Below are positions 34,976-62,776 of a DNA stretch of 64,000 bases, in pieces. The notes beneath the pieces were generated by a model. It had not been told where the DNA came from and made no database searches. It saw only the letters and a program-made list of their open reading frames with translations. A program made the position numbers and the translations under genes. Position 1 is the stretch's first letter. Each line of letters opens with the position of its first letter. This stretch comes from a virus: positions 51,929 through 115,928 of the IMG/VR virus record IMGVR_UViG_3300027792_000013, one strand, 5' to 3'.

Positions 34976-35218
34976 TTACGCAGTTTTAATTTGTTTTTCT
35001 TGAGATGTTAACCTATTAATTTCATCTCTCTTTCGTTTTATCTGAATTCGAATTTGCTCTATTTGTCTTGCTGTATCACGATTAAGAGTTTTGCTTGATC
35101 TGACATGTTTAATTTGATTTTCAAGATCTGCGATTTGTTTGTGCAATCGTTCTTTTTGTGCTTGTTTGTATATCTCGGTTGACTTATCACCTTCTAAAAA
35201 AATTTCTGTGCCTTTCAT
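34976..35218 (-). CDS. Coiled-coil protein with capsid-targeting-like start
   Basis: 80 residues from the ATG at 35218, behind AAGGAGATTTAAA; the longer frame runs into the tail gene. It starts MKGTEIFLEGD, the second form of the N-terminal signature shared by ten genes here, and continues as a charged helix (QIADLENQIKHV, RIQIKRKRDEINRL). Probably a head-core or internal protein. It lies just downstream of tail-tube genes. Confidence 0.6.
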   Translation of the reverse strand: MKGTEIFLEGDKSTEIYKQAQKERLHKQIADLENQIKHVRSSKTLNRDTARQIEQIRIQIKRKRDEINRLTSQEKQIKTA

Positions 35219-35229
35219 TTTAAATCTCC

Positions 35230-35733
35230 TTATTCCCAAGTTACATATAAAAAATTGACAGTGAATTCCAAAGGTTGATTGGTAAGATCCCAATTCAATG
35301 GAACTTCGGAAACCTCTTCCGGAATACAATCCTTGAACGTAATTGTTCTTATAGTTTGCATTGATCTATTATAGACATCAACTATTACATCGGATTTAAC
35401 GTTATCGAAAAAATCAACAGTCAATGTTTTTTTCGAATAAATTGCGTCAAACCATTTGCTAAACCCATTCCATACTTTAAACTCAGAATCAGAGAAAAAT
35501 GTTACTGGTAACAAACTGAAATTTAATCCACTTGGAACATTCAGTTTTAAACCATAATATGAGTACCCAGAAGAATTTAATTTTTGGCTTGGGAGTACTG
35601 CCCCTTTTGCAAAAAAGGTGCATCCAAATCTTCCCATATCTCCAAAATATTTTTGACCATTTGAAACAGTGACCTTGAACTTATTTGTTACCGCTACATC
35701 TTTGAATTGTGATTTAAATTGTTCAAGGTTCAT
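35230..35733 (-). CDS. Tail-tube-like protein, second copy
   Basis: 167 residues, similar in size and in overall beta pattern to the gp19-like protein encoded directly upstream: a start AVTNKFKVTVS, a central segment and an end PLNWDLTNQPLEFTVNFLYVTWE matching the INLSWDTTDTPEEYSVTFKYDYW of its neighbour. A paralogue of the tube protein; could be a tube initiator or baseplate tube protein (gp48/gp54 role). Coupled to its neighbour through TAATG. Confidence 0.6.
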   Translation of the reverse strand: MNLEQFKSQFKDVAVTNKFKVTVSNGQKYFGDMGRFGCTFFAKGAVLPSQKLNSSGYSYYGLKLNVPSGLNFSLLPVTFFSDSEFKVWNGFSKWFDAIYSKKTLTVDFFDNVKSDVIVDVYNRSMQTIRTITFKDCIPEEVSEVPLNWDLTNQPLEFTVNFLYVTWE

Positions 35734-36245
35734 TATTTTGTGGTGTCACTTGTCCAATAATCATACTTAAATGTTACTGAATATTCTTCTGGAGTATCCG
35801 TTGTATCCCAAGATAAATTGATTACATCACCACAGTTTTGTGGATATGCCCCTACGATAGTATATGATTTCAAAATTTCCTGTTTACTACCTAATTGAAC
35901 TACAAGAAGATCTCGTTTTACCTCTTGAAGTAAACTAAATCCGATATTTTGTTTTGTATTATTTATTAGCTCGCCCCATTCTTCTAGTTTTCGTCGAATT
36001 GTATATCCGATGTCATTATATACATGTACCGTCCAATCTTCATAGTCAGGATCTCCAGGAATTTGAACTTTTCTACCCATAAAACTCATTGCAAATCCCC
36101 CATTACTTTTCGTGGGAATAGAAGCCCCTTTGCAATGAAAACTATGATTCAGTGGGGTTCCTGTTGGAAATTGAAGAGTAACTAGAAATAACGTCGGTCT
36201 AGCGACGTTACCAAACATCGCTTTATATCCTTCAATACTTAGCAT
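35733..36245 (-). CDS. 19: Tail tube protein (T4 gp19-like)
   Basis: 170 residues, as in T4 gp19 (163). ARPTLFLVTLQFP near residue 15, FHCKGASIP near 36, MGRKVQIPGDPDYEDWTVHVYND near 56-78 and the final VTFKYDYW all follow gp19. It builds the inner tube within the sheath encoded at 40037. A strong AGGAGGATATA site lies just after a long hairpin (36261-36301). Confidence 0.9.
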   Translation of the reverse strand: MLSIEGYKAMFGNVARPTLFLVTLQFPTGTPLNHSFHCKGASIPTKSNGGFAMSFMGRKVQIPGDPDYEDWTVHVYNDIGYTIRRKLEEWGELINNTKQNIGFSLLQEVKRDLLVVQLGSKQEILKSYTIVGAYPQNCGDVINLSWDTTDTPEEYSVTFKYDYWTSDTTK

Positions 36246-36260
36246 TATATCCTCCTTTGG

Positions 36261-36301
36261 TATAACCAGGAGGGGATCTTACAAATCCCCTCCTGGTTAT
36301 A
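36261..36301 (-). terminator. 17-bp perfect hairpin after the major capsid gene
   Basis: Arms 36261-36277 and 36285-36301 are exact reverse complements, with a 7-base loop. No U run follows on the minus strand; instead the tail-tube ribosome site comes 6-10 bases later. It may be an attenuator, a processing site or a 3'-end stabiliser for the capsid mRNA. Confidence 0.7.
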
Positions 36302-36327
36302 TTAACTTCTATTACTACGAGCACTTT

Positions 36328-37734
36328 TTACAGATTGGTGATCGTAATGTATCTGTAGTACAGATGCGCACCAAAAGGATTTTCACCTAGACCGTATCGA
36401 GTTTGGAACCAGATCCTGGGCTGACCGTCTTCTTCACCAATACCCTTTTTGATTGTCAGTGGAACATAAGGGCAATAGTAAAGACCGGCATCCCATTCTG
36501 AGGTACCTTTGTAGCCAACGACACAATAGTTAGATGTTGCATAGATATCAACATAGACTTTGTACTTATGACCCAGGGTTCCAATAAAAGCACTATTTCC
36601 GAGATTAACATCTCCAATACCATAGTCGGTATTTCCGGGACCGTAGTGCTTAAACATTGGAAGACTTTCAATCATTGAAGCTACATCAAGACTACAAACA
36701 ATGAAATTGCCCCGACCTCGTAAAGTATCCTTTGCGATTTGGTTACCAGTTTTGTTGAACTTTTGAATCATCGACCAAGTCTTTTCTAGGCTCCAACGAC
36801 CATCCGCATCACCACCTTCATCAATACTCAAATAGTTGAAAGTTGAAGTTCCACCCAACTGAGCCTTTTCAATTAGCTTGTCCAAAAATCTTTTGTTCAT
36901 TTCAACTGCCACTTCATTACCAAGGGCTTTGGTAAGTTCAGCATCAGCATCCATACCATGAACTGATTTCAAATCCTGGGCAAGTTCATCAGTGAATTTA
37001 GCTTTTAACCGATAGTTATCAGCTGTTACTGTCACTTTCTCGATGACCATTCCGAGTTCTCGAATCCCGGTTGTTGCAGCTTCTGCAGCAGCAACATTAG
37101 CGAACTTTCCATATTCTTTGAAGAGGAACCGGAAATGAGCTTCGTTATCATAATAAGAACTAATTGTGGTTTCCGCACTAACGAAAGGATTTGCGTTATC
37201 AACGCTATCATCTTCCGCAAAGCTACCCGAAGTGATTTCTACCAGTACTGTATTGCCTTCCTTGTATCGAACAACACCAACTCCGGCTCCACTACCATTA
37301 CTGGTAATGGCTCCTTCTTGTACGAAGGCAGCCGCAGAACCTAAAACCATAACACAGGAATTTGAAGCCTTTACGGGGTAAGCCGTGTTATTATGATAAA
37401 CAGTTTTCATACAAAAAACTAAGCCGCTAGGACCAGTCATTGGCTGAACACCAAAAAGATCCATACCAATTAGTTGAGGAAAACCTCTTCGAATAACAGA
37501 GACTAGAACGGGTTCATACTTCTGTATATCGCCCGTTTCTGTCTTTTCTGCTAACAGGTAATCTTGTTTTTCATTTTCCAAAAGAACAGCCATAACAGAT
37601 TTTTGACGATCTGTTAAGGTCGGATACCCGACCCGCTCACTCAAAAATCCAGGAATCTCTTGATTGGTTTTCGGATCAATGGATGGTTCTGACCATTCCT
37701 GAAGTAATTGTGGAATAGGTTTAATTTGTAACAT
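36328..37734 (-). CDS. 23: Major capsid protein (T4 gp23-like)
   Basis: 468 residues. RQKSVMAVLLENEK near 43, FPQLIGMDLFGVQPMTGPSG near 86-105, and the C-terminal VYVDIYATSNYCVVGYKG and YYCPYVPLTIKKG segments follow gp23 of T4-like phages. Codon use and a strong GGAGGAAACT site fit a highly expressed gene. It follows protease and scaffold genes in the T4 order 21-22-23. Confidence 0.93.
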   Translation of the reverse strand: MLQIKPIPQLLQEWSEPSIDPKTNQEIPGFLSERVGYPTLTDRQKSVMAVLLENEKQDYLLAEKTETGDIQKYEPVLVSVIRRGFPQLIGMDLFGVQPMTGPSGLVFCMKTVYHNNTAYPVKASNSCVMVLGSAAAFVQEGAITSNGSGAGVGVVRYKEGNTVLVEITSGSFAEDDSVDNANPFVSAETTISSYYDNEAHFRFLFKEYGKFANVAAAEAATTGIRELGMVIEKVTVTADNYRLKAKFTDELAQDLKSVHGMDADAELTKALGNEVAVEMNKRFLDKLIEKAQLGGTSTFNYLSIDEGGDADGRWSLEKTWSMIQKFNKTGNQIAKDTLRGRGNFIVCSLDVASMIESLPMFKHYGPGNTDYGIGDVNLGNSAFIGTLGHKYKVYVDIYATSNYCVVGYKGTSEWDAGLYYCPYVPLTIKKGIGEEDGQPRIWFQTRYGLGENPFGAHLYYRYITITNL

Positions 37735-37745
37735 AGTTTCCTCCT

Positions 37746-38411
37746 TTACAATAGTGAAGCGTACTTTGCGCTTTCACTTACGACAATTTCTTCCTTCTTT
37801 TTAGAATCTTCCACCAGACTCTCGATTAAGAAGTCCAATTTCCCACTAAAAACTTTGGTGTCTGAAAAATCCATTTCGGAAATCAAATTTTTTAGTTTGT
37901 CTCTTTTCACATCTGTCAATGTTTTTGTTCTTTCATCAAATATTCGAGAGCATTGCAAACGAAGATTCTCTTCTTTGAGATGAAGGTTTTCCTCATTCTT
38001 GTTACCAAGTTCCTCTTTCAAATTAACGTTTTCTTCATTGAGACTGTCGAAAATGCCTTTTTGATCTTCGGGGATTGTTAATGAATTTTCCTTGATAACA
38101 CCAATTACAGCATCTGCGATTTGACTTTTGAGACGCAATTGTAAAGATTCTTCAATAGTAGTTTTGTTTTCTTTGAAATACTCATCGAGAGCTTCAGTCA
38201 AAAACGAATCAACTTTTGAAATCAATCCGGTTTTGAATTCATCTACTTCGTTGAGTATTTCTTTTTCAGCAGCTTCCCTAATCTCTTCTTTCATTGAAGA
38301 TACTTTTTCGGAGACCGCGGCTTCGAAAAGAACTTCAATTTTGGTATTGAATTCTTCCGTTAGAAGAGTAGGATCTACTGTTTCGAATAACTCTTTCAGT
38401 TTCTCTTTCAT
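37746..38411 (-). CDS. 22: Prohead scaffold core protein (T4 gp22-like)
   Basis: 221 residues, almost wholly helical, acidic, with heptad-type segments (EENVNLKEELGNKNEENLHL). The start MKEKLKELFETVDPTLLTEE and the position between protease and capsid genes fit gp22. It forms the internal core on which the head assembles and is degraded by the gp21-like protease. Late promoter at 38431. Confidence 0.85.
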   Translation of the reverse strand: MKEKLKELFETVDPTLLTEEFNTKIEVLFEAAVSEKVSSMKEEIREAAEKEILNEVDEFKTGLISKVDSFLTEALDEYFKENKTTIEESLQLRLKSQIADAVIGVIKENSLTIPEDQKGIFDSLNEENVNLKEELGNKNEENLHLKEENLRLQCSRIFDERTKTLTDVKRDKLKNLISEMDFSDTKVFSGKLDFLIESLVEDSKKKEEIVVSESAKYASLL

Positions 38412-38430
38412 GTTAACCTCCTTTGAAATC

Positions 38431-38438
38431 TATTTATA
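38431..38438 (-). promoter_or_regulatory. T4-type late promoter TATAAATA
   Basis: A perfect TATAAATA, then GATTTCAAAGGAGGTTAAC before the gp22-like ATG; probably the main promoter for scaffold and major capsid. Confidence 0.82.
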
Positions 38439-38461
38439 AAAATTTAATTTTTCATTTTTTT

Positions 38462-39151
38462 TTAAACTAACTCAAATGAGTAATATATATAATCAGCTTG
38501 CAAATATCTCATTGCAGCCCCCTTTGTTTTGTAAATACCAAAAGAAGGGCCAATTGGTTGATATGTTAAAGCTGGTGTTATATCACAAATTGGAATATCG
38601 TTGATGCTAAAATAGACTTTGGCATCAGTTTTTTTCTTTTCAATTGAAAGTTTAATCCAATCAGTTGTGATCACAACACCGGTATCAAAGTTAGTTATTT
38701 CATTACCATCCATATTATATACAATTCTCCAGTTAGGTGAATTTTTATCACAATAAAACTGAAGATCATTGTATGCTACCATATCAATCATACTTAACCC
38801 AGCTCTGACTTTAAATTCATCAGTTTCATTAGTTAGAGTACATATTTTTAATCTCTGATGTAAAATAAATTCAGACAGAGAGGAAAACTGAATAAATTTA
38901 TAGATTGAATGTAGAGAACAATATCCAGTCGATGCCGTTCCAGTATTTAAACCAACAAACCCAACTGCATCAGCATCAGAATTAAGAGTTGTAATACCAG
39001 CACCGGCTCCACTGAATTTGATTTGCAAATGCGGTCCAACCATTTGACCATTAGATAATCCTGGTTGAATTCCAAACATGAAATGTTCAAAAGACTGTTG
39101 CGCCTTCAAAACCTTTTCAAACGTTATACGTCCATCACATTGTACTGACAT
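38462..39151 (-). CDS. Beta-sandwich (lectin-like) virion protein
   Basis: 229 residues, beta-rich, with the features of a concanavalin-like sandwich: EFILHQRLKICTL, DLQFYCDKNSPNWRIVY, then WIKLSIEKKKTDAKVYFSINDIPI near 165-190, where such domains have the K-V-Y-x-N-G strand. It lies between the protease and scaffold genes, where T4 has no such gene. A head decoration or fibre role is suggested by context. AAGGAGAAAAACA site. Confidence 0.55.
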   Translation of the reverse strand: MSVQCDGRITFEKVLKAQQSFEHFMFGIQPGLSNGQMVGPHLQIKFSGAGAGITTLNSDADAVGFVGLNTGTASTGYCSLHSIYKFIQFSSLSEFILHQRLKICTLTNETDEFKVRAGLSMIDMVAYNDLQFYCDKNSPNWRIVYNMDGNEITNFDTGVVITTDWIKLSIEKKKTDAKVYFSINDIPICDITPALTYQPIGPSFGIYKTKGAAMRYLQADYIYYSFELV

Positions 39152-39162
39152 TGTTTTTCTCC

Positions 39163-39849
39163 TTAGATTTTTTTACCATTTTTTAACATTTTTAATAATA
39201 GACTGAACCCTTCAAAAAAAACTTTTTGTTTTTCTTCGGTACTCATTGTACTAATAAAAGATGATTTTACTCTACGTTTTACCTGCTCCGCAATATTTTC
39301 GTCAATAAAATCATACTCTACACTTTCGCAAATTCCTTGAACAAAAGCTTCTGGCCCAGCAGGATCGCAAACAATATCTCCAGGGGTAATCAATTTCATT
39401 CCCCTTTGAACAAATTTAGTTCCGTTTTGTTCTTTTAGTGCCCCAGTTGCCCTAGAAGAAATTCCTATTCTTGTTTTTTCATCAATAAAAGTTTTTACGA
39501 TATTACCAAGCGGGGTTGGCAATACTTTGGCTTTACTAATGAAATTGTTACCATCTTGAATCAATTCGAGAAACAAATGGGATACCCTATCCGGATTTAC
39601 GATTGGAGAATTTGGATGTCCTAGTTCTCCATAAGCTCCGCGAGGAACTATAAAATCTCTATTGTAAACATCTAGAGATTCTTGAATAACATCTAGCCCA
39701 TAATATCTACTATTTTTGTTTTTGATATTACATTGAATTGTTATGCCTTTAATGTAATAGTTAGGTTGAGAATTAGAAGTTTCCTCTTGTAAAATCTCAG
39801 ATGTAGTTTCCCACGTAGTTTCTCGGAACAGTTTAAGTTGACTATCCAT
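39163..39849 (-). CDS. 21: Prohead core protease (T4 gp21-like)
   Basis: 228 residues. YYGLDVIQESLDVYN near 50, RGAYGELGHPNSP near 72 with the His, and TRIGISSRATGALKE near 130-144 with the catalytic Ser match gp21-type proteases. It cleaves scaffold, capsid and internal proteins during head maturation. The ten proteins here with capsid-targeting-like starts would be substrates. Confidence 0.88.
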   Translation of the reverse strand: MDSQLKLFRETTWETTSEILQEETSNSQPNYYIKGITIQCNIKNKNSRYYGLDVIQESLDVYNRDFIVPRGAYGELGHPNSPIVNPDRVSHLFLELIQDGNNFISKAKVLPTPLGNIVKTFIDEKTRIGISSRATGALKEQNGTKFVQRGMKLITPGDIVCDPAGPEAFVQGICESVEYDFIDENIAEQVKRRVKSSFISTMSTEEKQKVFFEGFSLLLKMLKNGKKI

Positions 39850-39867
39850 TTCTACCTCCCTGAGAGA

Positions 39868-40026
39868 TTAGACACTCCCAACTATGTCATTTCGGATGTT
39901 TTCATTCATCTTTTCAATCCGTTCCTGAGCTTTTTCGTGAAGTTCTTCACCAATTAGCTCCTTGAATTTCAACGAATTACCTCGACTGGCCTCAAGTAAA
40001 GCCTCTAAAATTCTTTCTTTACCCAT
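39868..40026 (-). CDS. 67: Small prohead core protein (gp67-like)
   Basis: 52 residues starting at 40026 behind AGGAGGTAAATC. Begins MGKERILEALLEASRGNSLKF, with the small helical look of gp67 (E-A-I-x-S-x-D-x-x-x-A-x-K in T4), and lies directly before the protease gene like T4 gene 67. It lacks the acidic tail of T4 gp67. Confidence 0.65.
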   Translation of the reverse strand: MGKERILEALLEASRGNSLKFKELIGEELHEKAQERIEKMNENIRNDIVGSV

Positions 40027-40036
40027 GATTTACCTC

Positions 40037-41713: not shown

Positions 41714-41729
41714 TTGTCACCTTCCTTTT

Positions 41730-41776
41730 GGTTTCGGCAATGCACGAAACCTGAAATTTCAGGATATATATTATCC
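41730..41776 (-). promoter_or_regulatory. Structured leader of the tail sheath mRNA
   Basis: Three neighbouring inverted repeats: GGTTTCG/CGAAACC (41730-41751), the 14-bp palindrome CCTGAAATTTCAGG (41750-41763) and GGATA/TATCC (41762-41776). They lie between the late promoter at 41785 and the ribosome site of the sheath gene. Confidence 0.6.
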
Positions 41777-41784
41777 TCAAAAAG

Positions 41785-41792
41785 TATTTATA
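41785..41792 (-). promoter_or_regulatory. T4-type late promoter TATAAATA (sheath)
   Basis: A perfect minus-strand TATAAATA, about 70 bases before the sheath ATG, five bases from a plus-strand late promoter facing the other way. Confidence 0.75.
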
Positions 41793-41796
41793 AAAA

Positions 41797-41804
41797 TATA
41801 AATA
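41797..41804 (+). promoter_or_regulatory. T4-type late promoter TATAAATA, plus strand
   Basis: TATAAATA followed by only eight bases before the ATG at 41813. No ribosome site, so the transcript is probably leaderless or nearly so. It drives the plus-strand block that ends with the terminase. Confidence 0.75.
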
Positions 41805-41812
41805 GTTTTTAG

Positions 41813-42379
41813 ATGAAAACATTTAAAGAGTTTTTATTAGAAGAACAAGTAAAAATTAATAAGTATTTTCTCGAAACTTTTTTTTCTGGAAACTTAGATC
41901 TAGCATTCGAATATCAAAGTGAAAGTTTCAAAGCAAAGGTTGTTCCATTTTTTAAAAAAAGATATTTATTAGACAAAAATAGCAATTATACGATATTGAG
42001 TAAAAAAATTATAGATCGGGGTGGAAGGTGGTTATCCCAACCGTCAAGCCAAATATTATTGGTGGTGCTTGGAAGAAAATACTTGCAATCATTACTTGAT
42101 ACCAGTACATCGGGGTACGTATCTGAATCCGAAACAATTTTGTTATCACTATATTTTCATAAAGAAAAGTTCAAAGAAACAGAATTCAATTTATCTAATT
42201 TATTGCGATTGCGTTCAGATATTGAATTTTTTAACTTAACAAAAGAAGAATTGGTTCCTATTTTAATGGGTTTGTCGGCAAAACATCCAAGTTTTATTAA
42301 TGTTTCATTTACACATGATTTAGAAAAAATCAGTTTATATAATAAGGGTATATTAGATGTTGCACAATTATATAAATAA
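41813..42379 (+). CDS. Internal-head-type protein (MKTFKEFLLE start)
   Basis: 188 residues. The start MKTFKEFLLEEQ is nearly the T4 capsid-targeting sequence MKTYQEFIAE of internal proteins. The remainder is helical with a LLRLRSDIEFF segment and is not recognised. Expected to be packed into the prohead, trimmed after the targeting peptide and possibly injected with the DNA. First gene of the only plus-strand operon, with a late promoter right before it. Confidence 0.7.
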   Translation: MKTFKEFLLEEQVKINKYFLETFFSGNLDLAFEYQSESFKAKVVPFFKKRYLLDKNSNYTILSKKIIDRGGRWLSQPSSQILLVVLGRKYLQSLLDTSTSGYVSESETILLSLYFHKEKFKETEFNLSNLLRLRSDIEFFNLTKEELVPILMGLSAKHPSFINVSFTHDLEKISLYNKGILDVAQLYK

Positions 42380-42396
42380 AACAAAGGAGTAAAAAA

Positions 42397-42729: not shown

Positions 42730-42750
42730 CAATGTACAAATTACGATAAG

Positions 42751-45475: not shown

Positions 45476-45802
45476 TCATTTGCCCCTTGCCTTTTTGATT
45501 GCAGCACGACGGGCTTTGGCTTTGTCGAGGGGGGCGTCCCCCCATGTAAGAGGGACAGCAATAATTTGTTTAACTGCTTCATTGCATTTCACGGGTTCTT
45601 CCTCATAATATGGGCAATCTATCTTCAATTTTGTTTTCCGAGATATAGAACCTCCATATGGCTCTGGTTTTGAAATCCAATACTTGCTTGCTGGTAATGG
45701 AGGAATTTTATATGGAAATTCACATTCTCCGGTTCCATAAGGTGACAATCTACCAGTTTTTGTTTTATGCCATTTCGCATATTTACATTTCAAACAAAAC
45801 AT
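45476..45802 (-). CDS. Small Cys-rich protein
   Basis: 108 residues from the ATG at 45802 behind AAAAGGAGGAAGA. Starts MFCLKCKYAKWH (C-x2-C), with further cysteines in GECEFPY and DCPYYEE, which suggests a zinc or redox site. A GGGGGG-CGT-CCCCCC hairpin (45529-45543) lies in its 3' part. Function unknown. Confidence 0.6.
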   Translation of the reverse strand: MFCLKCKYAKWHKTKTGRLSPYGTGECEFPYKIPPLPASKYWISKPEPYGGSISRKTKLKIDCPYYEEEPVKCNEAVKQIIAVPLTWGDAPLDKAKARRAAIKKARGK

Positions 45803-46254
45803 TCTTCCTCCTTTTGCGGCAAATAACAGGCTAAAATGTTGATGTTGCAATTACCAAAAATTTCAATGATCATTGTCTGTACGAATTCCCAATCAAGACC
45901 ATCAAGACCGCATCCTATTCTCGGCATTGCAATATCTTTAATGTCGTGCTTTATCACAAGTTCCCGCATCTTTTTTAATGCCACTTCAAGATCTTTATAA
46001 GTTGGTTTTTCATAAGAATATTTTTTTGTTATGAGATTAAATACCCGGCCGGTCAATATACAGGTTGGGTGTTGTAAATCAGAATAATGATGACGAAGTT
46101 CTGTTCTCAAATTAAATTTTGTTGCCATAGGAACGGCAATTCCAGCCCCCATTCTCAGATCACTTGCAATACAATGAGTTAAATAATACTTTGGTGGCAA
46201 TAGAAAAATGTCTTGTTTAATTTCTTTGAAAAGAAGTGCATTATCCATTTGCAT
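45790..46254 (-). CDS. TARG1/DarG-like macrodomain ADP-ribosyl hydrolase
   Basis: 154 residues, a single macrodomain. THCIASDLRMGAGIA near 25, LITKKYSYEKPTY near 76 and MPRIGCGLDGLDWE near 112-124 follow human TARG1 (OARD1) closely. These include the Lys and the Asp (in GCGLD) known to act in TARG1 catalysis. The family removes ADP-ribose from proteins, and its relatives reverse the thymidine ADP-ribosylation made by the DarT toxin. In a block of small early genes it may protect phage DNA or proteins from host ADP-ribosylation. The anti-DarT role is inference. Confidence 0.82.
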   Translation of the reverse strand: MQMDNALLFKEIKQDIFLLPPKYYLTHCIASDLRMGAGIAVPMATKFNLRTELRHHYSDLQHPTCILTGRVFNLITKKYSYEKPTYKDLEVALKKMRELVIKHDIKDIAMPRIGCGLDGLDWEFVQTMIIEIFGNCNINILACYLPQKEEECFV

Positions 46255-47833: not shown

Positions 47834-47965
47834 TCAATATCCTCCAAGAAATTCGATGGTATAGCCCTCACCTTTTTGATAATAAGCGTGAAAGGTCAAT
47901 CCTCTTTTAACACATTCTTCAATTGCTTCAAACCATTCATCAAAGGAATTAACGGTTATTGTCAT
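47834..47965 (-). CDS. Hypothetical small protein
   Basis: 43 residues, starting MTITVNSFDEWFEAIEE, from the ATG at 47965 that shares bases with the previous stop (TAATG), and with GATAGGAGATAAC before it. Probably a real small gene given the packed start and stop. Unknown function. Confidence 0.6.
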   Translation of the reverse strand: MTITVNSFDEWFEAIEECVKRGLTFHAYYQKGEGYTIEFLGGY

Positions 47966-48198
47966 TAGTTATCTCCTATCTGAGAATCTTTGAAATCCGC
48001 AAAAACATCTTCGTAATTTTTGCGGCCAAAAAATTTATTGTTTGTGTATACCCAAGTTAGAAATTTTTCAATTTCTTCGACTTGAGAACATTCAAGTAAT
48101 TCTTCACAATAAGACAGAACTTCTTGAGGATTAAAAGTTCCTTGGTTAGCAATTGCACCACTAAGAATTAAATAATTTCTTTCTCCCAACTTCTTCAT
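47965..48198 (-). CDS. Paralogue A of a tandem pair
   Basis: 77 residues. It shares MKKLGxRNY, (F/Y)NPxxLxY, SQVEEIEKFLTW and DVFADFKDSQIGD with the next gene upstream (48202). Tandem duplication with divergence in the middle. AT-rich early region. Function unknown. Confidence 0.65.
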   Translation of the reverse strand: MKKLGERNYLILSGAIANQGTFNPQEVLSYCEELLECSQVEEIEKFLTWVYTNNKFFGRKNYEDVFADFKDSQIGDN

Positions 48199-48201
48199 TA
48201 G

Positions 48202-48435
48202 CTAATCTCCTATCTGAGAATCTTTGAAATCCGCAAAAATATCTTCGTAAATGTACTTATTCAAACTCCTTAGGTAAGGATTTGCATGAATCCAAGTCAA
48301 AAATTTTTCAATTTCTTCGACTTGAGAACTCAACAATTTTTCTTTGAAATACCCAAGAATCTTGGGATTGTACGTCCCAAAGATTCTAACCGCATTACTG
48401 ATAAGAGCGTAATTTCTCTTTCCCAACTTTTTCAT
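48202..48435 (-). CDS. Paralogue B of a tandem pair
   Basis: 77 residues from the ATG at 48435 with AAAGGAGTTAATA. The sister of the gene at 47965. A further in-frame ATG at 48453 lies six bases after TATAAT (48460), so a leaderless longer form (MKGVNN plus this) is possible. Unknown function. Confidence 0.65.
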   Translation of the reverse strand: MKKLGKRNYALISNAVRIFGTYNPKILGYFKEKLLSSQVEEIEKFLTWIHANPYLRSLNKYIYEDIFADFKDSQIGD

Positions 48436-51056: not shown

Positions 51057-51211
51057 TATTTTTTCCTTTTTTTATTATCCTCTTCTTTATTTTCATCTTC
51101 ATCTTCATCCTCTTCTTCTTCTTCTGATTTCCCCTCTTCCTCTTCTTCTGATTCTTCATTTTTTTTGTCTTTCTTTGCGATTTCTTCAAAAAGATCTTTA
51201 ATTGTTTTCAT
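51056..51211 (-). CDS. Acidic core-type protein (MKTIKDLFEE start)
   Basis: 51 residues from the ATG at 51211 behind GGAGATTTAAA. Starts MKTIKDLFEEIAKKD, then a run of Glu and Asp, then NKKRKK. The acidic tail recalls T4 gp67, while the first ten residues fit the capsid-targeting signature. Likely a prohead core or internal protein. Confidence 0.6.
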   Translation of the reverse strand: MKTIKDLFEEIAKKDKKNEESEEEEEGKSEEEEEDEDEDENKEEDNKKRKK

Positions 51212-51591
51212 TTTAAATCTCCTTTTTGTTTTTTAAATGTATCTTTCAATTCTTTTTGTGATTCCTGATTCCAAATCAATTTGTCTTTAACAACTTTGAT
51301 TTGGTGTTTAAGAGATTCTTTAGTTTTTTTGGATACTCCTGGTGTGGATGCTTGCATTCTGTATCTACTCAAATTGGTTTCAAATTCTTTTTGCTGAATT
51401 CGAAGTTTCTTAAGTTGGGCATCATAATCAAAAATATCTTTACCTTGTATGTTTTTTGTGGAACCATCTTTCCACGAACCAGTAATCCAATCTTTTTTTG
51501 AAACTTTATTTTTGGGATCCCATGGTGTCGAATATTTTTTAATAAAATCTGCTGTTGTATTTTCATTAACAAACTCTTTAAATGTTTTCAT
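51208..51591 (-). CDS. Internal-head-type protein (MKTFKEFVNE start)
   Basis: 127 residues. MKTFKEFVNENT is a close copy of the T4 capsid-targeting sequence. The body is basic and helical (KLRIQQKEFETNLSRYRMQA, KKQKGDLK), as in DNA-packed internal proteins. Own late promoter (51610). Overlaps the next gene by four bases. Confidence 0.7.
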   Translation of the reverse strand: MKTFKEFVNENTTADFIKKYSTPWDPKNKVSKKDWITGSWKDGSTKNIQGKDIFDYDAQLKKLRIQQKEFETNLSRYRMQASTPGVSKKTKESLKHQIKVVKDKLIWNQESQKELKDTFKKQKGDLK

Positions 51592-51595
51592 GTTG

Positions 51596-51763
51596 TTATT
51601 CCTGATTTTTATTTATATTTTCTTCTACGTTTTTTAAAAAACAATCAATGGCTTGAATAATCAAATCATTGATTTCAACATTCCATTTGGCTGCTAATTT
51701 ATTTAGTGTTTCAAGTGTATGAAACTCTATACCATCAATTACAACATGTATTATTTGTTTCAT
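51596..51763 (-). CDS. Small protein, possible ribbon-helix-helix
   Basis: 55 residues from the ATG at 51763, overlapping the gp14-like stop (ATGA). A strand IIHVVIDGIEFH is followed by two helices (LETLNKLAAKWNV, INDLIIQAIDCFLKNV), an arrangement like ribbon-helix-helix DNA-binding proteins. Tentative. A late promoter lies in its 3' part. Confidence 0.5.
   Translation of the reverse strand: MKQIIHVVIDGIEFHTLETLNKLAAKWNVEINDLIIQAIDCFLKNVEENINKNQE
51610..51617 (-). promoter_or_regulatory. T4-type late promoter TATAAATA
   Basis: A perfect TATAAATA about 20 bases before the ATG at 51591, inside the end of the gene at 51596. Confidence 0.75.
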
Positions 51764-53493: not shown

Positions 53494-53527
53494 TACAAAC
53501 TCCTTTTGTTTAATGATTTATATTAAA

Positions 53528-53556
53528 ATTATATAATAACCATTTTAAAAACTTAA
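53528..53556 (-). promoter_or_regulatory. Sigma-70-type promoter
   Basis: TTAAGT plus T run, 17-bp spacer, TATAAT, then a leader of about 25 bases with a normal ribosome site. The TAA of the protease-like gene at 53553 is part of the -35 box. Confidence 0.72.
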
Positions 53557-54245: not shown

Positions 54246-54253
54246 TTTTCTCC

Positions 54254-55612: not shown

Positions 55613-55620
55613 TATGCCTC

Positions 55621-58600
55621 CTATAATGCACGAAATGCCCATCTACTGTTCATAACAACTGGACTTTTCCACAAAAGCGTTGATTCTAAAACAAATTTGG
55701 CAGTAAACATAACTGGCCAGGCAGGTTCACTAGTATAATCAGTGACTATCCCAACATCGTCGCTTACAACATCATTATCAACAACATCCGTATCACTAAA
55801 TCTGGCGACTATATCATCGGTCAATAATACATATACTGAATTCGTTATTGAATCGATAGCTACAATTTTTCCTGTCGCTGAATCATCGATGTTATGTACA
55901 TTGTCACCAATTGCAAAAGTAATTGCCGCCCCCGCAGTTTCAAGGTCAAGTTTTTGTAACAACATGAAATCGAACTCATAAGTTTTTTTGTAAAACCCAC
56001 CACCAATATCGACATTGTCTATGGCATCATTAACTAATCGAAACCAAGTTAAATTGTTGTCTATACAAAATTCTCTGATAATAGAAGTTCCACTTTCAGT
56101 AAATTCATCAAGGACTAATTTTACGTTATTATAAGCCGGAACATCTTCTGTTAGTTTGGTAATGTATTGATTTGTAGATGCTATGTCATACCTGTAGAAA
56201 ATCAAATTTGTTTCAATGTTTACTATAGGAGTTGTTGCCCCGTTACCAGTTAGTTCAGCTTTTATTTGTAATTGAGTACCTTGTAGTCTTAGGTTGACTT
56301 CTTCGTGAATATTGAATGGTTTCCAGGTAGTACCCGCATCAATGCTATAATAGTATTGAATTCCTGAATTGGGGGTTTCAATAAACTCATTCATGAATAA
56401 AAATCTTCCAAAACAATCAAAGGCATAATGAGTATCATCAGCAACTTTTGGAAATGTAATATTTTCTAAAATAAAACTACCAGTTGTCGCAAATGTACCT
56501 TCGTATAATACAATAGCCAAATCTTTATCTTGTAAAGCGTTCCAGGTAACTCCATTAGATGAAGCAAATAATACTCCATCCAAATATGGATTTTCGGAAA
56601 TCACATTCCCGGAGTCCAAATCAACGTCACCTAGTTGTGAAACGAAAACTGTATATTCATGACTTTTTGACCCAACTGAAATATAAAACTGTTGCATTGC
56701 AGGAATGAATATTGGTCGTGTTAATGTAATTCTCGTTGGGGTTGTTCCATAAAGACTCGTTGTAATATTTTCAGGATAAAGTTCTTGTACATGAATCAAA
56801 TTTTCGGCATCTGGAAACCCATTTTTTAATAGCCCAATTTTGATTAAAACTGGTTCAATAGGAGAAAATGCGGTATAATTATATAGTTCATCTTCTGTAA
56901 CAGGTTTAGGTAAATCATCGGCTTTTGTCCCAAAATATAAATCAAACGCTGTTATAATTTTATCTGTTCTAAACAGAAAACTTTGGGCAATTGGATCAAC
57001 TAAAATATCTCCATTTTCATCTCGTTTATTTACTGACCAAGACATGGGGGTTGAAGGGGTTGGGGTCAACGATGGGGGATTTGGATTCATATTTACGGTA
57101 TCAAAAATTCCTTGTACTGGTGGGGTTTCTCTCATGGCTGATTCTTTGCTTGGTTGTTTATAATTGTATTGATCAGTAATTTTATCAAATACATTTGTAA
57201 CAACTGTTCGATTCTCAATAAACTTTTTAATCCCTTTGGCTTTAAAAATAGCAATGAATTCCAAATCATCACTATCAATAAATCTGGTTTCAATATCACC
57301 CGATCTAACTCCACTCGGAATAGTAAAGGTGGCTTTAAAAGATCCATCAGCAGCAACAGCAATTCTTCCTGTTGGCTGTCCCCCGGAGGTTTCGTTTCGA
57401 TATGGACTTATAGCCAACATTTTGGCTGCAATACCACCAAAGACACAGGCAACATATGCACCTGGACTAAAGTTTTTACCATGAACCGTTATGGTTTGAG
57501 GTCTAACGAAAGTATCTATATTTTCTCCGATTTCAACCTTTTCGGTAGAAACTTTATTATCGATTTGGTTCATAACTTCGGAAACATAAGCATTAGGGGT
57601 ATCATCGTATGATGATTTCGAAGGCTTACTCCAGTTAATCCAATTTGTTTTTGTTATTGTATTTCTGACTTCATTTTCTATTATGGTTTTTTCAGTAACT
57701 ACATAGTCAATATAAAAATCTCGGTCAGGACTCATAGACGTAAATGGTTTTTTAGTTATGACTCCAAAGGGATTCAAATTCATTGTTTCAGATTTCAGAG
57801 TATTTGTAAAAAATACAACATCGGAAGTTTTTTCTAAAGTCAAAACTTTTTCTCTGCCAATTTCATTTGTATAAACAGTTATATTGGTTCGCGTATCATT
57901 ACTACGATCATATTCATAATCTCGTTCATAACTAACCATTGAAAGAGTCTGATCAATTAAATTCATGGCACAATAATAGTCTGGATTTTGAAGATTTGCC
58001 TTGTACATTGTATTGAATGGATCTACTAAGAGTCCACTCAATGTTGTTGATAATTCTCCTTCTTTAACTTCCCCTTCTAAAGCCAGAGCTGCGATATTTG
58101 TTTCCAATTGATTTATACGGGCCTTCATATAATGTAAATCCCGCATTGTTGTTCTTTTGAAATTGTACTCTTGAATAATTACATCTGTATGATCCTTTCC
58201 CGGTTTAAATTTTATCCACCCTAGAGGAAGAAGTTCTTCGTTGAATGGGGGAATTAACGTCTTATCGTAAGTAGTTGGAATACCTTCTTTTTGAATAACA
58301 GCTCCAAATTTGTCTATGCTAAACAAATCTGTTCTGGCTAAATATGTGTAATAATCAACCAACATCGTTGTTGTATTTACTGGAATATCTCCAGTATTTG
58401 TGATATGAACATTGTACATATCTGATTGATCGGAGTCTTCAACAATTGTAAAATCTGTATCACGAACTAAATTTTTATAATAAGTAAAAGTTACATAATA
58501 GGTAACTCCGGTTCCTGGTTTAGCTCCAATCCAGTGAATCATATCAGATTCAAGTTCGTAATCAACTCCTTGTGTATATCCAGGAATACTTTCAATTGCA

Positions 58601-59613
58601 TTTATGCTAGTATATGTTGTTCCATAAATATTGATGAATGAATCATAGTTACCCGTTCCTCTGGTAACTGCCATTGATGAAACCCGAACAATTGCGGTTA
58701 TGTTAATCAAATGAACGCTTTCATCAGTTACTACATATGGTTTGAATAACAAATAATCATCAGTTCCAGTAGCATACGTATGTGGTTCATTTGCATAAGC
58801 AATTGTTGTCAAGGCCCTACTTATAGCTATTTTTTTGGGTACAATAAATCTGTTATCAAATCCCTTGACATAGCAAATTCCAGGTCCAACACAAACATTA
58901 ACGTAAGGATTATCATAAATACTTGGGTCTTCCCCTTCTGGAACCGGAGCTTGTTCAACGGTTAATTTCATACCTTCAACTAAATAGTTTCCGCTTTCGT
59001 CATAGGTTCTTTGAGCTAGAGTTTCTGATAGTTTTGAATAATCTGGTCTTCGTATATAGTTTTGGACGATACCATCAAGTAGATTCCAAAGTGTTTTTAC
59101 TCCGTCTTCATCAGAATATTTTTGTGTTTCTGGTAATGTTATTTTAACACTAGGAACATCAATGACTTTAACTAAATGTCCAGTTATTTTCAATCTATGA
59201 GATCCAGCTAACCCATAATTCGTATGTCCGCTGGCAGGATCAACTAAAGTACTATCATCGGCTTCTGTAACAAATTCTTCTTTTATATAGATTCCTACAT
59301 TTTCTGTACCGCTAGCTAAAACTGTAATATTTTGTTCTGGAATTTCAATTATTCTGCCATTGTAGTAATAACTACCAGCTGTTATACTGGCCGTGGTTCC
59401 AACTACTGCCAAATCAATACCATCAACAACACTTCCATTTTTGTACAATGTATCAAAATTCTTTTTTAGTTGAATGTTCTGAAAACTCTGCAATTGAGTA
59501 ATTTCTCGGCTCTGTGGTGCTCTCCCAGGTACACATAAAACTTGTTTATAGTCTTTTGCCCACTGAGCTTCGGCATCATCGTAATAAGGATAAATATTTA
59601 AATCAATTGCCAT
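55621..59613 (-). CDS. Large baseplate/fibre protein with DUF4815 domain
   Basis: 1330 residues, the largest protein here. The start LNIYPYYDDAEAQWAKDYKQ and RAPQSREITQLQSFQN near 30-50, then SYYYNGRIIEIPEQ near 80, belong to the DUF4815 family of T4-like structural proteins. The middle has an immunoglobulin-like part (TITVHGKNFSPGAYVACVFG near 620) and the end several beta sandwiches. It lies between the gp8-like wedge gene and the fibre gene, which suggests a baseplate-attached fibre or spike. Confidence 0.75.
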   Translation of the reverse strand: MAIDLNIYPYYDDAEAQWAKDYKQVLCVPGRAPQSREITQLQSFQNIQLKKNFDTLYKNGSVVDGIDLAVVGTTASITAGSYYYNGRIIEIPEQNITVLASGTENVGIYIKEEFVTEADDSTLVDPASGHTNYGLAGSHRLKITGHLVKVIDVPSVKITLPETQKYSDEDGVKTLWNLLDGIVQNYIRRPDYSKLSETLAQRTYDESGNYLVEGMKLTVEQAPVPEGEDPSIYDNPYVNVCVGPGICYVKGFDNRFIVPKKIAISRALTTIAYANEPHTYATGTDDYLLFKPYVVTDESVHLINITAIVRVSSMAVTRGTGNYDSFINIYGTTYTSINAIESIPGYTQGVDYELESDMIHWIGAKPGTGVTYYVTFTYYKNLVRDTDFTIVEDSDQSDMYNVHITNTGDIPVNTTTMLVDYYTYLARTDLFSIDKFGAVIQKEGIPTTYDKTLIPPFNEELLPLGWIKFKPGKDHTDVIIQEYNFKRTTMRDLHYMKARINQLETNIAALALEGEVKEGELSTTLSGLLVDPFNTMYKANLQNPDYYCAMNLIDQTLSMVSYERDYEYDRSNDTRTNITVYTNEIGREKVLTLEKTSDVVFFTNTLKSETMNLNPFGVITKKPFTSMSPDRDFYIDYVVTEKTIIENEVRNTITKTNWINWSKPSKSSYDDTPNAYVSEVMNQIDNKVSTEKVEIGENIDTFVRPQTITVHGKNFSPGAYVACVFGGIAAKMLAISPYRNETSGGQPTGRIAVAADGSFKATFTIPSGVRSGDIETRFIDSDDLEFIAIFKAKGIKKFIENRTVVTNVFDKITDQYNYKQPSKESAMRETPPVQGIFDTVNMNPNPPSLTPTPSTPMSWSVNKRDENGDILVDPIAQSFLFRTDKIITAFDLYFGTKADDLPKPVTEDELYNYTAFSPIEPVLIKIGLLKNGFPDAENLIHVQELYPENITTSLYGTTPTRITLTRPIFIPAMQQFYISVGSKSHEYTVFVSQLGDVDLDSGNVISENPYLDGVLFASSNGVTWNALQDKDLAIVLYEGTFATTGSFILENITFPKVADDTHYAFDCFGRFLFMNEFIETPNSGIQYYYSIDAGTTWKPFNIHEEVNLRLQGTQLQIKAELTGNGATTPIVNIETNLIFYRYDIASTNQYITKLTEDVPAYNNVKLVLDEFTESGTSIIREFCIDNNLTWFRLVNDAIDNVDIGGGFYKKTYEFDFMLLQKLDLETAGAAITFAIGDNVHNIDDSATGKIVAIDSITNSVYVLLTDDIVARFSDTDVVDNDVVSDDVGIVTDYTSEPAWPVMFTAKFVLESTLLWKSPVVMNSRWAFRAL

Positions 59614-59621
59614 TTTTACTC

Positions 59622-60137
59622 CTAAAATGCAATAATAATCCCAAATTGTTCAGTTTGAACATTCGATCTTGTTACTGGAGTTCTGTTGTTTACATAATGT
59701 AGAATTCCTTGATCAACTACACTTGCTGGTAAATATGATAACCCAGTCAACACCACGCCACCAGCACCACTAGGATTCGATAGAACCCCAATTTGCCTAA
59801 ATGTTACTGAAGTTGGACAGAAATCATTGTAGTAAATATTTGTAACCAGATATACCATTGTCGGCAAATCCGTATAAATATCATCATCTAAAATAGCTCG
59901 ATATATAACGCCACTAACTTCGATTTCACCTGTGCTATCTGGAACGATCAAATACTTGGAAACAATCTTTTTTATAAATTGTAGTTCCTCTACTTCAGTT
60001 TGTGATGCCACTGGAACATCAGGATTGTTTTCGTCAGTCCAAGGAGTTGTTCTACCGATGGCTAGATATAAATTAGATTGTTGTTTAAAGTCATAAGCTC
60101 GCCAAACTCTGTTTTTTAATGTTAAAATGCTGCTCAT
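59622..60137 (-). CDS. 8: Baseplate wedge protein (T4 gp8-like, short)
   Basis: 171 residues from the ATG at 60137, overlapping the upstream stop (ATGA). LYLAIGRTTPWTDENNPD near 24-41 (gp8: I-x-x-G-R-x-x-P-W), FRQIGVLSNPSG near 113 and LHYVNNRTPVTRSNVQTEQFGII near 145-167 (gp8: Y-x-x-N-R-P-P-I ... Q-T-E) match T4 gp8 in order. T4 gp8 has 334 residues, so this is a shortened form. Confidence 0.7.
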   Translation of the reverse strand: MSSILTLKNRVWRAYDFKQQSNLYLAIGRTTPWTDENNPDVPVASQTEVEELQFIKKIVSKYLIVPDSTGEIEVSGVIYRAILDDDIYTDLPTMVYLVTNIYYNDFCPTSVTFRQIGVLSNPSGAGGVVLTGLSYLPASVVDQGILHYVNNRTPVTRSNVQTEQFGIIIAF

Positions 60138-60709
60138 TTTTTCTTCCACTTACCTTCTATTTGATTGTACGTCAAATCACCTTTGGCTTTAAGTGTCCGT
60201 AAATGATCACTCAAATTTTTAATATTCGAAAATTGCTTTTTAATTTCAGCGTATGTGTGATTTACAATAAATTTCTTTAAACGATCTTGGATTTCATTTT
60301 CACTTTTTGGTTCTTGTTTTTCTTTCTCCTTATTTAGCAATCTCAAATGATCTATTTTTTTAGTAATATCAAACTGATCTATTTTTTTAGTAATATCAAA
60401 ATATCTATTATCTTGTTTTTCTTTCTTCTTATTTAGCAATCCCAACTGATCTATTTTTTCAGTAATATCAAAATATCTTTTTTTCTTCCACTTACCCTCT
60501 AATTGATTGTACATTAAATCGCCTTTGGTTTTAAGTTCTTGTAAATGAACACTCAAATTTTTAATATTCGAAAATTTCTTTTTGATTTCAGCGTATGTGT
60601 GATTTACAATAAATTTCTTTAAACGATCTTGGATTTCACTTTTTGGTTCTTGTTTTTCTTTTTCTGTTTTTTGCTCTTCTTGTATTAAAAATTCTTTAAA
60701 TGTTTTCAT
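60134..60709 (-). CDS. Internal-head-type protein with duplicated winged helix
   Basis: 191 residues. Starts MKTFKEFLIQEEQK, like the T4 capsid-targeting sequence. The body holds two nearly identical segments (about residues 31-80 and 141-191): LKKFIVNHTYAEIKK, FSNIKNLS, HL, L, KGDL, YNQ and EGKWKKK recur in both. Each looks like a winged helix. Between them lies a smaller RYFDIT(E/K)KID repeat. A DNA-binding protein carried in the head is my inference. Own late promoter (60726). Confidence 0.7.
   Translation of the reverse strand: MKTFKEFLIQEEQKTEKEKQEPKSEIQDRLKKFIVNHTYAEIKKKFSNIKNLSVHLQELKTKGDLMYNQLEGKWKKKRYFDITEKIDQLGLLNKKKEKQDNRYFDITKKIDQFDITKKIDHLRLLNKEKEKQEPKSENEIQDRLKKFIVNHTYAEIKKQFSNIKNLSDHLRTLKAKGDLTYNQIEGKWKKK
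60290..60500. repeat. Short internal tandem repeats
   Basis: Within the internal protein gene at 60134, segments encoding FDITKKID and RLLNKEKEKQ recur several times between the two winged-helix copies (about 60330-60480). Boundaries are approximate. Confidence 0.6.
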
Positions 60710-60725
60710 TTTAACTCCTTGATTT

Positions 60726-60733
60726 TATTTATA
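60726..60733 (-). promoter_or_regulatory. T4-type late promoter TATAAATA
   Basis: A perfect TATAAATA, then AAATCAAGGAGTTAAA before the ATG at 60709. Confidence 0.8.
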
Positions 60734-60744
60734 TTTCATATACC

Positions 60745-61587
60745 CTAGACCAGAGTTAATTTCACATCTCGTTGCCACATGAATTGATTTGTATTTCCTG
60801 ATGCTGTGGCCATGTCCCAAAATGTAAAACCATTTTCTACATCACTAAAATCCCATAACCCAACAATCAAATTTGATTGGTAATTATCAAATTGTAAATT
60901 GCCTAAAGCAGCATCAATTGTTCTATGTAAAGCCCATTCTTCACAATAATTTGGTGCATACCACATATCAAAATCAGATAAAGCAGCTACATATTCATCT
61001 ATGTGGAGATCATTTATTATGCGTAAATAGAAAATTTTACAACCAGTTGGATGTAAAAGCGCTTCACAAATATCTTGTAATTCCGTATATCCGAATACAT
61101 CAGATCTAATTTCGTAGACGTAGTAGGCATAATATTCATTGTCATGATATTTTGAACTTCCACTATATACGTGATTTTTATTGGAATATGTCATGATATT
61201 CTGTTCAGGATAATAAAACGAAAATGAACCCACATGGTTCATTATCTGAAACAGAAATTCATAACTTTTTTGTGTTCCTTTTATAGCATAAAAATCTTTG
61301 GCATGTTTGATCAACAGTTTTACATCGATTTCTTGAATTCGATACAAAGGAAATTGAGCCAAATATTGTTTTGTATATTGTTCCAAAATATCAGCTTCGT
61401 TTACACTGTCGATTTGATCAATGTCAAGAAAATGTAGAAAGTCTCTAATCAATTGGTATGGATTTCCGGTTGTGTCTAGCCACTCTAAATAGTATTGAAT
61501 AAATGCTTTGAACTTCGGATATTCTTCTCTAAGGTATTCCGGAATAAAACGATTAATCAACACTGATAAAAATTGTGATCTAGCCAT
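60745..61587 (-). CDS. Baseplate/tail structural protein
   Basis: 280 residues. The start FIPEYLREEYPKFKAFIQYYLEWLD and LIRDFLHFLDIDQID near 45, then YAIKGTQKSYEFLFQIM near 118, form a pattern I know from the N-terminal part of wedge-type proteins of T4-like phages (helix, E-W, D-I-D, K-G-T-x-x-S-x-x-F-L-F). Late promoter at 61605. The likely role is in the baseplate wedge. The exact T4 counterpart (gp7 or gp6 role) is uncertain. Confidence 0.6.
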   Translation of the reverse strand: MARSQFLSVLINRFIPEYLREEYPKFKAFIQYYLEWLDTTGNPYQLIRDFLHFLDIDQIDSVNEADILEQYTKQYLAQFPLYRIQEIDVKLLIKHAKDFYAIKGTQKSYEFLFQIMNHVGSFSFYYPEQNIMTYSNKNHVYSGSSKYHDNEYYAYYVYEIRSDVFGYTELQDICEALLHPTGCKIFYLRIINDLHIDEYVAALSDFDMWYAPNYCEEWALHRTIDAALGNLQFDNYQSNLIVGLWDFSDVENGFTFWDMATASGNTNQFMWQRDVKLTLV

Positions 61588-61604
61588 TTAATTTTTCCAT
61601 TTTG

Positions 61605-61612
61605 TATTTATA
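61605..61612 (-). promoter_or_regulatory. T4-type late promoter TATAAATA
   Basis: A perfect TATAAATA about 18 bases before the ATG at 61587; no classical ribosome site in the short leader. Confidence 0.72.
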
Positions 61613-61613
61613 T

Positions 61614-61859
61614 TCATTCAATCACCAAATGTTGATCAATTCCGGAAATTGAAATAATCCAATTAGCTTTTTCTTTGGTGGAACATTCAACTGATCTAAC
61701 TTGATCCTCTTTATAGAAATAAGTTAATTGTTTGAATTTTTTACTGTATCTTGCTATTTTTTTCTCTGGTCTTCTTTTAAACATACCACCAACAGGAGAT
61801 TCTTTTGTTTGTACATCTCCAGATTCCGTAGTTTCTAAAAAAATATTTTTGCCTTTCAT
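61614..61859 (-). CDS. Small internal-head-type protein (MKGKNIFLET start)
   Basis: 81 residues behind GAGGGACTAAAA. Starts MKGKNIFLETTES, second form of the packaged-protein signature. Basic middle (FKRRPEKKIARYSKKFKQL), then a beta end. Function unknown. Confidence 0.6.
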   Translation of the reverse strand: MKGKNIFLETTESGDVQTKESPVGGMFKRRPEKKIARYSKKFKQLTYFYKEDQVRSVECSTKEKANWIISISGIDQHLVIE

Positions 61860-61861
61860 TT

Positions 61862-62776
61862 TTAGTCCCTCGTTATATTATCTAAATATTCATCAATTTG
61901 TAGCAAAATTTGTTGTGGATTGTATTTTGAATCATTTATTTTTTGGTTATCAATATCACTCTCTACACTTCGTTTTAATTTTTCAATTAATTTTTTTCCA
62001 AAATTAAACATTTTGTATACTATTAGTAGAAAAACATTAAAATATAAGTATTCTTTTCGTTGATTAAAATCAATTATAGATTTTTCTATTATTGGATTAT
62101 ACTTACTTTTAGCATAACTAATAAATTCTTTGATATCTGTATTTGTCAATCCAAATGCAGCGGCTTTTCTCAAAACTGTTTTATTATCGAAACCATCTAA
62201 GTATGGTTTTCGATTTCTAAGATAAATACTATCTAAAATACTATAAGATTTATTTTTTAGTATTTCAAAAAATTCAATTAATGATGCTTCTTTTTCAGTT
62301 AAACGACTACTATGATTTTTCCAATAAAATGATGATAATTTCAATCTTTTATTAATTAGATTTTGAGATTTTAAATTTTCCATATTTTTTTTATCTAAAT
62401 TCCAATCATATTTCAATGATTTGTTAAGCCACTGTGACATATGAGTTATTTCATGTGCTAATGTTGCGAGAGCTTTTTCTTTTGTGCCTTCTTCCCAAAG
62501 ATTGGTATTGATAGTAATAATCCATTTGAGCGTTCTCATATTTTCTATTGTCTTATCTTCGTTGTTAGTACATTGGGTCACATACCGTTTGCCAAATTTA
62601 ATTTTGACATTTATACTAATTTTTTCATTACCATCGTCATATATTTTTTTAAAAGTATAGTTACCAATAGGAAATATTTTATCAAGTTGTGGTTTAACTT
62701 CTGCCATTACATCTTGCAGTAAAGTTCCTTTGTAATTACTAAAACCTTCTGCTAAGAAATCTTTAAATCTTTTCAT
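61862..62776 (-). CDS. HExxH metallopeptidase-like internal protein
   Basis: 304 residues from the ATG at 62776 (MKRFKDFLAEG, the packaged-protein signature); two bases separate it from the previous stop. LATLAHEITHMSQWLN near residue 108 is a clear H-E-x2-H zinc protease motif, followed by ENLKSQNLINKRLKL and TEKEASLIEFFEIL near 160, which may give the third ligand. Second protease-like protein with this start. Inferred to be carried in the head. Confidence 0.62.
   Translation of the reverse strand: MKRFKDFLAEGFSNYKGTLLQDVMAEVKPQLDKIFPIGNYTFKKIYDDGNEKISINVKIKFGKRYVTQCTNNEDKTIENMRTLKWIITINTNLWEEGTKEKALATLAHEITHMSQWLNKSLKYDWNLDKKNMENLKSQNLINKRLKLSSFYWKNHSSRLTEKEASLIEFFEILKNKSYSILDSIYLRNRKPYLDGFDNKTVLRKAAAFGLTNTDIKEFISYAKSKYNPIIEKSIIDFNQRKEYLYFNVFLLIVYKMFNFGKKLIEKLKRSVESDIDNQKINDSKYNPQQILLQIDEYLDNITRD

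Follow-up and report, generated by a model that had tools for sequence, protein, structure and literature searches.

N-termini resembling T4 capsid-targeting sequences on eleven genes of a distant T4-type phage

The internal proteins IPI-IPIII of phage T4 begin with a capsid-targeting sequence, MKTYQEFIAE (Mullaney and Black 1996, reviewed in PMC9026906). Ten N-terminal residues are enough to direct a protein into the T4 head, residues 4 and 7 being needed for targeting and residues 8 and 10 for processing, and the protease gp21 cleaves after L/I-x-E (PMC9026906). Different GmrSD restriction enzymes are inhibited by T4 Ip1, Ip2 and Ip3, which are injected and are alike only in this leader (PMC12373910). 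Here we describe similar N-termini, called tags below, in a window of 64,000 nucleotides (31% G+C) that covers positions 51929-115928 of the 115,928-base virus record IMGVR_UViG_3300027792_000013. The type of leader is known from T4; the window adds a set of eleven genes in a distant, little-known T4-type lineage and a second form of the tag, group G, which scans of viral contigs found in no other phage. We put the probability at about three in four that the common N-termini represent T4-like capsid-targeting propeptides and that the tagged proteins are packaged, trimmed and delivered, a reading drawn from sequence.

The tags occur as group A (six genes, MKTFKEF/MKTIKDL type) and group G (five genes, MKGxx[ILV]F). 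A preliminary description of this DNA had reported ten of them, and all ten are starts of open reading frames (ORFs), at 35218-, 41813+, 42397+, 49993-, 51211-, 51591-, 54245-, 60709-, 61859- and 62776-. The total was raised to eleven by a member spanning the ends of the record. The tagged genes, with lengths in amino acids (aa), are:

34976-35218, minus strand: group G, MKGTEIFLEG, 80 aa, coiled-coil-like body
41813-42379, plus strand: group A, MKTFKEFLLE, 188 aa
42397-42729, plus strand: group G, MKGSKLFEEG, 110 aa
49820-49993, minus strand: group G, MKGKEVFQPE, 57 aa
51056-51211, minus strand: group A, MKTIKDLFEE, 51 aa, very acidic body
51208-51591, minus strand: group A, MKTFKEFVNE, 127 aa
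53553-54245, minus strand: group G, MKGKEIFLYE, 230 aa, HESIH motif
60134-60709, minus strand: group A, MKTFKEFLIQE, 191 aa, body duplicated internally
61614-61859, minus strand: group G, MKGKNIFLET, 81 aa
61862-62776, minus strand: group A, MKRFKDFLAE, 304 aa, HEITH motif
62779-64000, minus strand: C-terminal part of the eleventh tagged gene, group A (MKTIKQIFEEAL), start at record position 158, across the record ends

Residues 2-10 of the 175 genes predicted on the 116-kb record were compared all against all using BLOSUM62, with no motif preset. This blind comparison recovered the same two groups that had been proposed before. At a score of at least 25, 16 pairs were found, versus a mean of 1.8 (maximum 5) at internal offsets and 0.74 (maximum 5) after column shuffles. 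The top-scoring pairs were mostly tagged genes, the remaining few being paralogues or chance matches. Tandem paralogues with the starts MKKLGERNYLILSG and MKKLGKRNYALISN lie at window positions 47965-48435. Among the tagged genes, column identity falls to background past about residue 10. All ten tags of the window lie within the last 46 of the 175 genes (P = 7e-7), where they are scattered over head, tail and baseplate blocks with groups A and G alternating along the genome. The observation made in the preliminary description is confirmed and was slightly understated.

The near-identical tags and the position of the genes in one region could also be expected of paralogues whose bodies have diverged while the start was kept. 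However, the bodies do not match one another (lowest E value 0.11), as claimed before, nor do they match other genes of the genome, and the proteins range from 51 aa to more than 400 aa; elsewhere, in T4-like and environmental viral contigs, bodies of 85 separate clusters begin with A-type tags. We regard descent from a common gene as extremely unlikely. The same holds for a likeness at the nucleotide level, that is, a common translation-initiation or regulatory sequence with no protein tag. The A-rich starts ATGAAAACATTTAAAGA are almost identical as DNA, but the tag codons vary synonymously (Gly as GGC, GGT or GGA, Glu as GAA or GAG), which already contradicts a shared DNA signal and places the likeness at the protein level. 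Moreover, the 80 nucleotides upstream have nothing in common except Shine-Dalgarno sequences and late-promoter boxes, and the same peptide is encoded by varied codons in other phages.

Group A agrees closely with the T4 sequence. Residue 4 is F or I and residue 7 is F, L or I in all six tags, and Glu stands at residue 10 or 11. Five of the six contain the strict L/I-x-E processing site, and the sixth has V-N-E. Three independent tests favour identity with the T4 sequence. For the first, partial environmental viral contigs from public data were picked by a 21-nucleotide MKTFKEF pattern alone, nothing downstream being specified. Among 107 distinct MKTFKEF ORFs, [LIVMF]xE occurs within residues 8-14 in 74, compared with 9 at residues 18-24 and 2 at residues 28-34. 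In 16 of 22 T4-like records, MKx[FY]xEF is present in 2-6 copies per genome, while its reversed control gave no match in all 33 records searched.

The group A tag is also interchangeable with the T4 tag on orthologous bodies. In other phages, one 77-aa body is headed by either MKTFKEFIAES or MKTYQEFINET, and the MKTFKEF copy of this protein matches the curated family phrog_8111, 'internal virion protein' (3e-51). Bodies that are 88% identical carry MKTFNELFNES or MKTYQEFIAES, so that the LF form can replace the F-hydrophobic form. Further cases of interchange were found in clusters C6, C16 and C27. All these cases of interchange come from other phages; the tagged bodies of the present phage are without a tagged orthologue. 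In the environmental family C0, MKTFKEF-LDE-SSLSRIK stands beside MKTFKEF-CSQLDE-SSLSRIK, in which a linker is inserted and L-x-E is kept. The interchange, the site of protease type after the tag, and the matching protease and scaffold described below bear out the earlier proposal of a T4-type tag for group A, for which the proposal appears right in kind and is well supported; for group G such a role is plausible but inferred. No paper came up when the literature was searched for the letters of the tag, in a coverage with few subscription journals, and these environmental tags may have been described before.

The window encodes the head machinery on which such a tag would depend, including a portal and a terminase. 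The relevant genes are:

39163-39849, minus strand: prohead protease of the S77/gp21 type, starts MDSQLKLFRET
37746-38411, minus strand: scaffold of the gp22 type, starts MKEKLKELFET, phrog_237 (2e-34)
36328-37734, minus strand: major capsid protein of the gp23 type, phrog_138 (4e-101)
39868-40026, minus strand: small ORF placed like gene 67 of T4, starts MGKERILEALLEA, role assigned from position only

The protease matches PF03420 (6e-23) and phrog_207 (1e-53), and at least 98% of 45 sequences share its residues H78, S131/S132 and D158. In the major capsid protein, LLAE aligns with the T4-like FLxE/AEIGGD cleavage position. Together with this LLAE peptide, the tag peptides MKTFKEFLLEEQ, MKGKEIFLYEGI and MKGTEIFLEGDK would be candidate S77 substrates. 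The head block also has an unexpected insertion, a gene at 38462-39151 between protease and scaffold for which no PHROG or Pfam match was obtained.

A T4-type late-promoter box, TATAAATA, precedes 12 genes by 18-30 nucleotides; at four control distances no gene has this box. It lies close upstream of 4 of the 11 tagged genes compared with 10 of 164 others (P = 0.006), one of the four belonging to group G:

41797-41804, plus strand: TATAAATA before tagged gene 41813
42371-42378, plus strand: TATAAATA before tagged gene 42397 (group G)
51610-51617, minus strand: TATAAATA before tagged gene 51208-51591
60726-60733, minus strand: TATAAATA before tagged gene 60134-60709

A scan for sigma-70-type promoters gave no more sites than in shuffled sequences. 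Just outside the window (record 51437-51643), a 68-aa protein starting MKTFGDYFSALS is preceded by a late promoter at the customary distance and is a possible degenerate twelfth member; it was left out because it has no Glu site.

According to the favoured explanation, the tagged proteins would be made late in infection, several of them from T4-type late promoters. The first ten or so residues would dock on the assembling scaffold core, by which the protein is enclosed in the prohead, and the gp21-type S77 protease would then cut after the Glu of hydrophobic-hydrophobic-x-Glu at about residues 8-11. The freed body would remain in the head beside the DNA and enter the host on infection. Group A would be the T4-type sequence and group G a lineage-specific form, one residue shorter before the LF/IF pair. 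Packaging and injection would follow T4 precedent; these steps, the cleavage and an equal role for groups G and A are what we infer.

Several points weigh against this explanation. In group G, residue 4 is T, S or K and the hydrophobic pair lies at residues 6-7, so the hydrophobic residue 4 of T4 is absent; for this reason group G was not filed as a strict T4-type member. Strict L/I-x-E is found in only two of the five tags. In scans of viral contigs with exact and degenerate group G patterns, only this phage and chance-like matches, mostly inside ORFs, were found. The sole T4-like match, MKGNKIFNSQ in G016, was rejected for want of a Glu site. Evidence in favour comes from a hydrophobic pair-x-Glu starting at residues 5-8, which is present in 10 of the 11 tags and in 4 of 164 other genes, the protease among the four, but this motif was drawn up after the tags had been seen. 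In addition, the gene set came from a simple home-made caller. Finally, UvsW.1-like proteins of T4-like phages (phrog_1143, filed as 'DNA helicase') bear an A-type N-terminus, so that the tag alone may not prove packaging, and its use as proof by itself was rejected; some tagged proteins may be unpackaged, or UvsW.1 may be packaged. Such UvsW.1-like starts, for example MKSFTEFVNEAA or MKTFKEVIQEAS, are found at L007 14605-14838, L018 18853-19080, L048 14616-14846 and others.

These properties of group G raise the alternative that only group A targets the capsid, group G being another common leader such as a tail, baseplate or chaperone docking peptide. Several group G genes adjoin tail genes, for instance those for the tail tube (35230) and a sheath stabiliser (50003). 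On the other hand, these tail blocks hold group A genes too, the two groups being interleaved. A relaxed site, hydrophobic pair-x-E, accommodates four of the five G tags as well as LFRE of the phage's own protease. The late promoter is shared by one G gene, which stands next to an A gene, and each group contains one HExxH protein. We consider a separate docking function unlikely. Group G is a fairly probable capsid tag and probably a shortened, lineage-specific variant of the T4-type tag: MKG-x-x-[ILV]-F corresponds to group A minus one residue before the hydrophobic pair (compare MKTIKDLFEE with MKGSKLFEEG) and resembles the starts of the phage's own protease (MDSQLKLFRE) and scaffold (MKEKLKELFE). 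That A and G are two separate capsid addresses, recognised by different sites, or else at distinct stages in the assembly of the core, and sorting two cargo classes in one head, is a more speculative idea and quite improbable.

The bodies themselves give hints of function. The protein at 41813 resembles phrog_2667, 'internal head protein', weakly and at its N-terminus (E 0.064). The HEITH protein at 61862 (group A) has a SprT-like match at E 0.0014, below the cut-off, and both this protein and the one at 53553 resemble SprT-like, phage metallopeptidase, M91 and M30 models at scores below threshold; these matches are no more than suggestive of metallopeptidases. Homology between these A- and G-tagged HExxH proteins would prove tag interchange in this phage, but BLASTP between the two yielded E 0.089 only, and no relative in PDB was found. 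AlphaFold models made without an alignment were too poor for a structure search (pLDDT 46-48). The gene at 60134-60709 contains two repeats of about 50 aa, 90% identical as DNA, and matches Pfam TBD (7.7e-9), which is probably convergence in a Lys-rich helical repeat.

Elsewhere, tagged proteins match models of ART-PolyVal (ADP-ribosyltransferase), GNAT (acetyltransferase) and Zeta_toxin (zeta-toxin-like kinase), and A-type tagged proteins show weak matches to Zn_protease and RNA 2'-phosphotransferase. Examples of enzyme-like proteins with A-type tags are located at L064 3736-4532, L086 6037-6816, L007 19934-20773 and L157 2513-2941. These proteins are in line with delivered enzymes. They also bear on the possibility that the tagged proteins are parts of the scaffold core or head structure, packaged and cut but not injected as effectors. 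The 51-aa acidic protein looks like a core peptide, and the scaffold and protease starts are similar to the tags. Yet the bodies are a diverse set of orphans that do not resemble core proteins, enzymes are tagged elsewhere, and the T4 Ip1-3 proteins are injected inhibitors (PMC12373910); a purely structural role seems doubtful. In the favoured explanation, the cargo is likely to act in counter-defence or early host take-over, by analogy with T4 Ip1-3 and Alt. The preliminary label 'effectors' for the whole set is unproven: just two bodies carry an HExxH motif, and the 51-aa acidic protein is more like a core peptide.

The eleventh gene was recognized at the ends of the record. Start and end are the same 12-mer, and joining them gives a single open frame, MKTIKQIFEEALSLDVAKKF..., which runs into the ORF ending at window position 62779; this ORF thereby extends over the record ends to MKTIKQIFEEALSL. 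Homologues of the eleventh protein in jumbo phages align without a break over the junction (query residues 1-254 and 6-231, for instance). The in-frame joining of the ends and these alignments point to a probably circular and complete genome of about 115.9 kb, though the record is classed as linear. The eleventh protein contains W-x-x-G repeats. In the jumbo phages Lu11 (Pseudomonas) and JA13 (Dickeya), neighbouring genes have an N-terminus of their own in common (MKIQLAVAG, MRIQLAVAAV, MKIQLATAAV; MEIEVSLSAL, MKTVVSISAL), with sites at L323 576, 1492 and 3431 and at L324 439, 1384 and 3168. One of these shared starts heads a homologue of the eleventh tagged protein, and the common N-terminus may be another packaging tag.

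Two further loci of the window were noted. A macro-domain protein at 45790-46254 (PF01661, 4.7e-6) possibly acts on ADP-ribose signals. At 12819-14073, a radical SAM protein adjoins a 6-pyruvoyl tetrahydropterin synthase-like protein, a pair as in 7-deazaguanine (QueE/QueD) synthesis, which would be the putative pathway.

If the favoured explanation is true, a short leader lists the proteins delivered with the phage DNA; since the bodies are orphan, such proteins are difficult to predict by other means. The second form of the tag seems matched to the phage's own scaffold and protease, and a comparison of lineages could then test the targeting rule. Should the two-address idea be true, separate cargo classes would be sorted within the same head.

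Sheath and terminase scans of viral contigs yielded no close relative. The nearest relative of the major capsid protein by local identity, L043/G020, has no tag in its 75 kb. G033 was rejected as a relative, since it is a 100% identical 19-kb piece of the same phage and carries no evolutionary information.

Among described systems, T4 IPI-IPIII are most similar to the tagged set, with a ten-residue N-terminus on unrelated bodies, a cognate S77 protease and scaffold and, for group A, the MKT-aromatic-x-E-F frame with Glu at residue 10. The two differ in that eleven genes are distributed here over head, tail and baseplate blocks, whereas T4 has three in two loci, and in that this phage has the second tag form MKGxx[ILV]F and two HExxH bodies; no body of this phage matches the T4 internal proteins. 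In T-even phages, the signal sequence has served to find sets of ip genes (PMC12373910 and references therein), which likewise comprise many non-homologous genes under a common leader. The T-evens are nevertheless far from this phage (best core-protein identities seen, about 30-42%), and the bodies described here are new. T4 Alt is also a head-delivered protein trimmed by gp21, in its case at both ends (PMC9026906), but no ADP-ribosyltransferase was recognized among the tagged proteins of the window, while A-tagged ART-PolyVal and GNAT proteins are found in other contigs. The head ejection proteins of SPN3US and phiKZ, finally, have N-terminal propeptides that are cut after Glu by a gp21-related protease; these giant-phage propeptides differ in being mostly 111-254 residues long and, in SPN3US, in the cleavage motif A-x-E (PMC5694885, PMC10052503).

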